A stretch of DNA of 32,534 nt from Myxococcales bacterium. Its GTDB lineage: Bacteria > Myxococcota_A > Polyangia > Nannocystales > Nannocystaceae. The stretch covers positions 1 to 32,534 of the forward strand of contig JAAZXR010000048.1 in the NCBI GenBank assembly GCA_014240065.1, given 5' to 3'. Shown here piece after piece: positions 190 through 2,507 of this stretch. Below the pieces are notes generated by a model that had not been told where the DNA came from, did no database searches, and was given only the letters and a program-made list of their open reading frames with translations. Each line of letters opens with the position of its first letter. The stretch's first letter is position 1. The translations under genes and the position numbers were made by a program.

Positions 190-711
190 CTAAATGCCGG
201 AGGTCATGCGCCAGGTCTCTTCGTCGCGCAGCAGCGTAAACTCGGAGTGGTCTTGCTTGCGTTGGTACGGCGCCTGCGGCCTCGTCGATCCGTCGGGGGC
301 GAGGATCGGCTTGAAACGAAAGCTGGCGTCGAGCCACACCTTCACGGTGGCACGATCCCCGTGTACATGAAGCTCGAGGTAGTCGATGGTGAACCGAATC
401 GAATCGAGCTGAGAAAAGCGCCCGCGGAGCAGCTCGCCGAGATCTTCGTAGGTGACGTCGTCTCCCGGATCGTCGGTGCCGGACCGGTCGAGGTAGGTCG
501 GATGCGTCACCGACAGCACCGTCGCCGTGTCGCGCGACAAGAACGCCACGCGGTAGCGCTCGAGCACCTGCAAGATGGCGCGCGCCTCCGGTGTGTCGGC
601 GATCTCCGTCCCTGGAATGGTCGGGCCCGTGGAGCACGCCCCGAGCACAACTGGCGAAGCGACGAAGAACAAAGAGAGGCAGCAAGCGGCGAATGAACGA
701 ATTGGAGACAT
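190..711 (-). CDS. Predicted lipoprotein, possible NTF2-like fold
   Basis: This encodes a 173-residue exported lipoprotein. The start at 711 is preferred over an in-frame ATG at 798 because it puts a standard signal peptide first: positively charged MSPIR, a hydrophobic core, then lipobox LGAC with the acylated Cys at residue 26. A promoter-like TTGCCC-N17-TACATC lies just upstream of 711. The mature part (EARAILQVLERYRVAFLSRD, later a Thr/His/Asp-rich stretch and alternating strands) resembles SnoaL/NTF2-like small alpha+beta proteins, in which an early helix is followed by a curved sheet. That resemblance is by eye only. The function is unknown and the protein is probably anchored in a membrane facing the periplasm. 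Confidence 0.75.
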   Translation of the reverse strand: MSPIRSFAACCLSLFFVASPVVLGACSTGPTIPGTEIADTPEARAILQVLERYRVAFLSRDTATVLSVTHPTYLDRSGTDDPGDDVTYEDLGELLRGRFSQLDSIRFTIDYLELHVHGDRATVKVWLDASFRFKPILAPDGSTRPQAPYQRKQDHSEFTLLRDEETWRMTSGI

Positions 712-742
712 GGAAGTTCGCCGCTCTCGGGACGGCGCCACG

Positions 743-771
743 GATGTATCGCAAGCGGTGTTCCAGGGCAA
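743..771 (-). promoter_or_regulatory. Candidate promoter for the lipoprotein gene
   Basis: On the minus strand, TTGCCC (766-771) and TACATC (743-748) are separated by exactly 17 bases. A start about 7 bases downstream would give a leader of roughly 25 nt before the ATG at 711. Confidence 0.35.
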
Positions 772-905
772 GGACCCTGCAAAATTGGGTGATATCAACT
801 AGATAGATGAAAGGAGTGAGCCCCGTGATTGCCATTTTGGCAACGCCCACCGAGCGCAGCGACACCTCGTCGGGCCTGTCGGCCGCCTCGCGAGGGCGAT
901 CTTGC

Positions 906-2015: not shown

Positions 2016-2507
2016 ATGGTGATGTCTCTCGGCGCGGCCATGCTCTCCCTCGCGATGCAAGGACCCGCGCGCGCGCCCGCCTCCCCCGACAAGGCGAGCC
2101 TGTTTGGCAGCGCGCTCCTCGTCCCGACCCCCGAGGGTGAGCGCGCCCGGTCCGAGCTCGCCATCGCCGGCGAAGTTGAACGGGTCCTGGCGGCGATGCC
2201 CTCTGTGCGTGATGTCCGAGCGTCGATCAATCTCACGGCGCCGTGTCGCGCCGTCATCTCGCTGAGCGCGCCCGCCGCTGTCGCACCAAAGATTGAGGCC
2301 GCCGCCAGCGCGACGGTGCCCGCGCTGTCGGGTTGCGACACCCCCCCGCTGCTGCTCGTCTCCTCTCCGGCGCCGCTCGAAGACGAGAGGCCCGGCGCGC
2401 TGCCCTGGCCGCTCGCCCTCTCCTTGCTGAGCCTCGGCGTGTGCCTCGGAATCATCGCCGAACGCCTCCGGCTCCGCGCTCACCGCGATCCAGATGACAT
2501 GCGATGA
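2016..2507 (+). CDS. Truncated YscJ/FliF-like ring protein (inferred)
   Basis: This 163-residue protein has an N-terminal hydrophobic export-like stretch (residues 1-18) and one C-terminal membrane helix (about residues 131-151, PLALSLLSLGVCLGIIAE). Between them, the segment LVPTPEGERARSELAIAGEV, followed by VERVLAAMPSVRDVRASINL, follows the pattern of the second ring-building domain of the SctJ/YscJ and FliF families. Those read roughly LISSPxEERARxxYALSQEL, then a helix ending SIDGVxSARVHL. The later AVISLSA strand and the LLLVSSPAP strand also match in order. It is much shorter than SctJ (about 240 residues) and has no lipoprotein first domain. The assignment rests on motif recall and needs a profile search. 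It follows a FliA-like sigma gene. Confidence 0.5.
   Translation: MVMSLGAAMLSLAMQGPARAPASPDKASLFGSALLVPTPEGERARSELAIAGEVERVLAAMPSVRDVRASINLTAPCRAVISLSAPAAVAPKIEAAASATVPALSGCDTPPLLLVSSPAPLEDERPGALPWPLALSLLSLGVCLGIIAERLRLRAHRDPDDMR

Follow-up and report, generated by a model that had tools for sequence, protein, structure and literature searches.

Openly accessible surveys place type III secretion systems (T3SS) of the Myxococcota only or mainly in the Myxococcales (PMC3459982, PMC10196010), and a prior report from elsewhere may exist. One of these surveys, with three Nannocystales among its 17 genomes, found T3SS mainly in the Myxococcales and no Tad/Kil pilus in the Nannocystales (PMC10196010). 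The needleless T3SS* of Myxococcus xanthus (MXAN_2434-2464) is encoded in one cluster that holds SctD, J, I, Q, RSTUV, N and L (PMC10433427), and Abby and Rocha (2012) reported the 'Myxo' non-flagellar (NF) T3SS only in the Cystobacterineae. In the Chlamydiales the core genes are dispersed over several loci and the systems are complete (PMC3459982). As to the ring formed by SctJ, it is known for its flagellar counterpart FliF that the second ring-building domain (RBM2) forms rings alone and that RBM1 inhibits this, while the RBM2 of SctJ needs its linker, with a conserved linker Phe, to assemble (PMC8786727). Type III secretion can proceed without the ATPase if the proton motive force or the substrate level is increased (PMC4230889), and in Salmonella the methionines of SctR form a gasket that seals the pore (PMC8239009). 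Here we compare with these systems a locus of the Nannocystaceae (class Polyangia), found in a 32,534-nucleotide contig of a Myxococcales bacterium (JAAZXR010000048.1, assembly GCA_014240065.1; the whole contig, C178 in our numbering, is called the window). It carries a short SctJ that probably belongs, as a subunit, to a reduced type III export gate of this family, non-flagellar and encoded at scattered loci.

The open reading frame at positions 2016-2507 of the forward strand was confirmed as a real gene for an SctJ-type (YscJ/FliF) protein. Its 163-aa product has an N-terminal hydrophobic segment (2016-2090), a linker, RBM2 and a C-terminal membrane helix, and RBM1 is absent. The linker motif LFGSALLVPT (2100-2129) is of the L1 type, its Phe and LV/P pattern aligning with EscJ and PrgK. 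RBM2 occupies residues 39-116 (2130-2363) with an alpha-beta-beta-alpha-beta order according to the AlphaFold model and Foldseek, and the membrane helix predicted by the initial annotation lies at residues 131-156 of the model (2406-2483), followed by a short tail. Sequence and alignment show that the lipobox Cys of the aligned Nannocystaceae relatives is missing in the window copy, which reads LAMQGPA in the hydrophobic segment. The spacing from this Cys to the linker is mostly 22-28 aa in the Nannocystaceae against 76-80 aa in full-length relatives, therefore about 54 aa, that is RBM1, are gone; this stretch is absent from all the aligned members of the family. The window protein is thus a truncated SctJ homologue and not a canonical SctJ, which agrees with the earlier proposal that the first domain was missing and the linker and second domain kept.

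The likeness to YscJ/FliF claimed at the outset is weak for the single sequence and firm for the family. Searched alone, the window protein matched Pfam PF01514 (YscJ/FliF) only at E 0.047, below the cut-off, the NCBIfam SctJ model TIGR02544 at E 0.001 across the linker and the start of RBM2, and EscJ in the PDB at E 0.3. A PHROGs search returned no match. Such weak matches to YscJ/FliF could also come from a small membrane-anchored lipoprotein that is unrelated to this family and resembles it by chance. A profile of 13 family members, on the other hand, ranked EscJ and two PrgK entries 1-3 in the PDB (E 0.0011-0.0036), and hhalign of the short family against full-length SctJ of sister families gave 97.9% probability (E 6e-13, 105 columns). 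The window protein and its Paraliomyxa orthologue were both modelled with AlphaFold from Nannocystaceae sequences only; the models, of moderate confidence (mean pLDDT 72 and 77), show the RBM order of the ring-building fold together with the membrane helix. In Foldseek the window protein came closest to EscJ and PrgK among PDB folds (E 1.6e-3, prob 1.00), the Paraliomyxa orthologue to PrgK and MxiJ (E 1e-5 to 4e-5). With profile, synteny and fold all agreeing on SctJ, a chance resemblance is rejected, and we give it hardly any weight.

Compared with SctJ/YscJ/PrgK/EscJ of non-flagellar T3SS, which give the best profile and fold matches, the Nannocystaceae protein shares the L1-type linker with its conserved Phe, RBM2, the C-terminal membrane helix and, in members other than the window's, the lipobox Cys. 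It differs in lacking RBM1 and in its length of about 160-190 aa as against about 245-310 aa, and the window copy differs further by the absent Cys. The linker and the glycine-rich membrane helix are conserved across the short SctJ proteins of the family.

Two genes directly upstream on the forward strand proved to be what had been suspected: a PilZ-domain protein of 108 aa (919-1245, Pfam E 4.5e-12), first in the module, and a FliA/WhiG-type sigma factor with regions 2 and 4 (1191-1967, E 2.7e-25). The sigma gene starts with an in-frame ATG at 1191, within the last part of the PilZ gene. FliA/WhiG is the best subfamily for the sigma factor, yet the score is 89 bits against a subfamily cut-off of 190. 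An aldehyde dehydrogenase gene follows the short SctJ gene downstream. On searching 116 related genomes, short SctJ matches were found in 24 of the 29 Nannocystaceae genomes (the window's own counted), one of which (G013; E 0.006, internal stops) is doubtful and was left out of further use; the named loci belong to Nannocystis, Enhygromyxa and Paraliomyxa. The order of the three genes is conserved, PilZ and sigma genes adjoining short SctJ in 19 of the 22 relatives fetched, with the SctJ gene inverted in one of these (L042) and one gene inserted in another (L041). Two of the remaining three end at a contig boundary (one still showing the sigma gene) and the third is an exception without these neighbours. 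We also observed that in nearly all relatives the PilZ gene is preceded by a divergent gene for a small SnoaL/lumazine-binding-like protein (window 190-798, reverse strand). Pairwise dN/dS among the Nannocystis copies ranged from 0.17 to 0.69 and was below 1 in every pair; the evolution of these copies is fast but purifying. The three-gene module inferred in the initial annotation therefore stands as a conserved order, but it is probably not the functional unit; most likely that unit comprises SctJ and the gate genes at other loci.

The short SctJ descends from a full-length SctJ, and RBM1 was lost by descent and not by chance, because the sister families of Polyangia carry full-length SctJ at the same locus. 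Their non-flagellar SctJ is of about 245-310 aa and scores up to 96 bits with PF01514, a model that detects no non-flagellar SctJ in the Nannocystaceae. In several other Polyangia families the full-length gene is often found in the same neighbourhood of sigma, PspA-like and HolB-like genes. We noticed that SctJ of family f8 (L116:1762-2340 on the reverse strand, also L115) seems to lack RBM1 too, with the N-terminal Cys kept, so RBM1 may have been lost more than once, perhaps twice; SctU of this family is likewise short (about 233 aa).

The absence of any export apparatus or ATPase gene alongside the short SctJ was borne out by genome-wide searches, in which the window's contig gave no FHIPEP, FliP, FlhB, FliR, FliI or FliM/N match. 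The same genome holds a full flagellar cluster on contig C110, with its own FliF, FliI, FlhA, FlhB, FliPQR and FliA. This flagellum, along with the FliA-like neighbouring sigma factor, might suggest that the short SctJ serves the flagellum or derives from FliF. But the flagellar cluster holds its own FliF and FliA, Nannocystaceae without any flagellar FliF still keep the short SctJ, and synteny ties it to the non-flagellar SctJ of sister families. A flagellar origin is thus ruled out by the flagella-free relatives, and we regard it as highly improbable. The RBM fold is shared with FliF, and the FliO-like gene before SctR recalls the order of fliOPQR, whereas the Nannocystaceae protein has neither RBM1 nor RBM3, has one C-terminal membrane helix and shows no tie to flagella.

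The description of the short SctJ as an orphan does not hold for the genome as a whole. A second FHIPEP protein, the non-flagellar SctV, stands alone on contig C11 (PF00771, E 1e-114), and contig C121 carries FliO-like, SctR, SctS and SctT genes in this order behind the ribosomal/rpoA/rplQ operon (SctR PF00813 E 4e-27; SctS PF01313 E 2e-4; FliO-like PF04347 E 9e-4). SctT had no family match in this genome and was named by position only; in the Nannocystaceae its identification depends mostly on position and on weak matches. The FliO-like-R-S-T order behind rpoA-rplQ is present also in Nannocystis and Enhygromyxa, in genomes where no flagellar FliF was found, and J, R, S, T and V are all retained in Nannocystaceae without flagella, among them a Nannocystis whose genome is closed. 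Thus across the family the short SctJ is retained together with SctV, SctR, SctS, SctT and a FliO-like protein, whose genes lie at two further loci. In a tree of FHIPEP proteins the flagellar FlhA formed a separate clade (SH-aLRT 100), and SctV of the Nannocystaceae fell on the non-flagellar side with the SctV of Desulfovibrio and Bradyrhizobium, where its branches are long and the finer placement is unsure; the longest of them is that of the window genome. The cytoplasmic domain of SctV is kept, with a weak match to FHIPEP positions 455-654. By eye, the Asp that matches FlhA D208 seems to be replaced by Arg in SctV of the window genome (L072:8214-10106, reverse strand) and is kept in the other Nannocystaceae SctV inspected. 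We further observed that SctR-S-T, often with U, lies between the rpoA/rplQ operon and priA/fmt across Polyangia (L083:9227-11179, L092, L094, L095, L099, L102). FliO is otherwise a flagellar feature, and a FliO-like gene precedes SctR at many of these loci. Just upstream of FliO-like/SctR in other families there is a PilZ-like gene, named by its sequence pattern (L094:7822, L095:12732, L093:11412), which places PilZ genes at both the SctJ and the SctRST loci.

Other parts of the machinery were not found. SctU, which is needed in known systems, was detected in flagella-free Nannocystaceae neither by Pfam nor by a profile of Polyangia SctU; the weak matches to this profile in the family (E 6e-5 to 0.7) were partial and scattered, some with stops, and were judged to be chance. 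In the same flagella-free genomes there was no SctN, only F-type ATPases being found, and no PF01052 match that would indicate SctQ. Flagellated members have at most one ATPase, of the FliI type, and both PF01052 matches of the window genome lie inside its flagellar cluster. These absences of SctU, SctN and SctQ rest on profile searches, which very divergent proteins could escape. Most other Polyangia families tested have all three; outside the Nannocystaceae, every family tested for SctN has a non-flagellar SctN in addition to whatever flagellar ATPase it may hold, and SctQ is present in each family in which it was looked for. Where SctU is present in Polyangia, its NPTH self-cleavage motif was kept in one copy and altered (NPDH, NPVR) or gone in others (L090, L092, L095, L098, L099), as if the decay of SctU in Polyangia had begun before the Nannocystaceae lost it. 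The methionine gasket of SctR is lost in all six Nannocystaceae aligned.

The losses listed above give some weight to the view that short SctJ and gate genes alike are slowly decaying relics that no longer have a function: RBM1, SctU, SctN and SctQ went stepwise, the loci are scattered and evolve fast, the window copy has lost its lipobox Cys, and some dN/dS values are as high as 0.69. Against this, in most genomes of this genus-rich family the frames are open and alike in length, gene order is the same, the linker and the glycine-rich helix are conserved, no dN/dS pair reaches 1, and J, R, S, T and V are retained together. Decay over so wide a range should have left pseudogenes, and we consider a relic rather unlikely. 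Decay in the window lineage alone is possible, because the window genome is the most divergent member of the Nannocystaceae sampled, with no lipobox Cys and the longest SctV branch. The initial annotation had offered a remnant or a minimal re-use of secretion-ring parts, and each is partly true: RBM1, SctU, SctN and SctQ are lost, but the remaining parts persist throughout the family, and this speaks for a function that is still retained.

In the export gate that we favour, RBM2 and its linker would assemble into an inner-membrane ring around the SctRST pore and SctV. Such an RBM2-only ring would follow from the Nannocystaceae keeping just the linker, RBM2 and the membrane anchor, and it would form free of the brake that RBM1 puts on oligomerisation. 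As the ATPase is absent, the energy for any transport would come from the proton motive force, by way of SctV. Regulation of the gate is suggested by the adjoining sigma and PilZ genes, which may link it, in its expression or its activity, to a regulon and to c-di-GMP. While the joint retention of these genes is observed, their assembly and function as one complex is what we infer from it. A working protein exporter is doubtful, because SctU is absent and SctR is without its methionine gasket, and the gate possibly no longer secretes protein. One may accordingly ask if the reduced set (the SctJ RBM2 ring, SctR/S/T, SctV and FliO-like) has been turned to a job other than secretion, for instance as a regulated channel or as a scaffold in the membrane under the control of c-di-GMP. 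Without an ATPase, substrate switch, sorting ring and methionine gasket, the set no longer has the usual functions of secretion, and PilZ genes adjoin SctJ and, outside the family, lie close to SctRST; but SctV keeps its cytoplasmic domain, with the weak match noted above, and gates can secrete without the ATPase (PMC4230889). We hold such a different membrane device, with usual protein secretion given up, to be a tentative alternative only.

Relative to the systems described before, the Nannocystaceae gate is best read as a reduced relative of the needleless T3SS* of Myxococcus. They share a non-flagellar export gate within the Myxococcota, and both are on the non-flagellar side of the SctV tree if, as we infer, family f30 represents the T3SS*/'Myxo' NF-T3SS group. 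The genes form a single cluster in Myxococcus but are scattered in the Nannocystaceae, where SctU, SctN and SctQ were not found. Core genes spread over several loci are a feature shared with the Chlamydiales, except that the systems there are complete while the Nannocystaceae have no ATPase, SctU or SctQ (PMC3459982). What remains poses the question of the smallest useful type III export gate: a predatory family does without the ATPase, the switch protein, the cytoplasmic ring and one half of the SctJ ring, yet keeps the pore, the gate and the base of the ring throughout. The Nannocystaceae thereby offer a natural test of whether a ring is built by RBM2 on its own and of whether SctRST and SctV work without SctU and the ATPase, which bears on how the non-flagellar system evolved. 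If instead the family keeps SctR, S, T, V, FliO-like and the RBM2-only ring as a different membrane device, this minimal pore-gate complex would be a third fate of the machinery, besides the flagellum and injectisome-type secretion.
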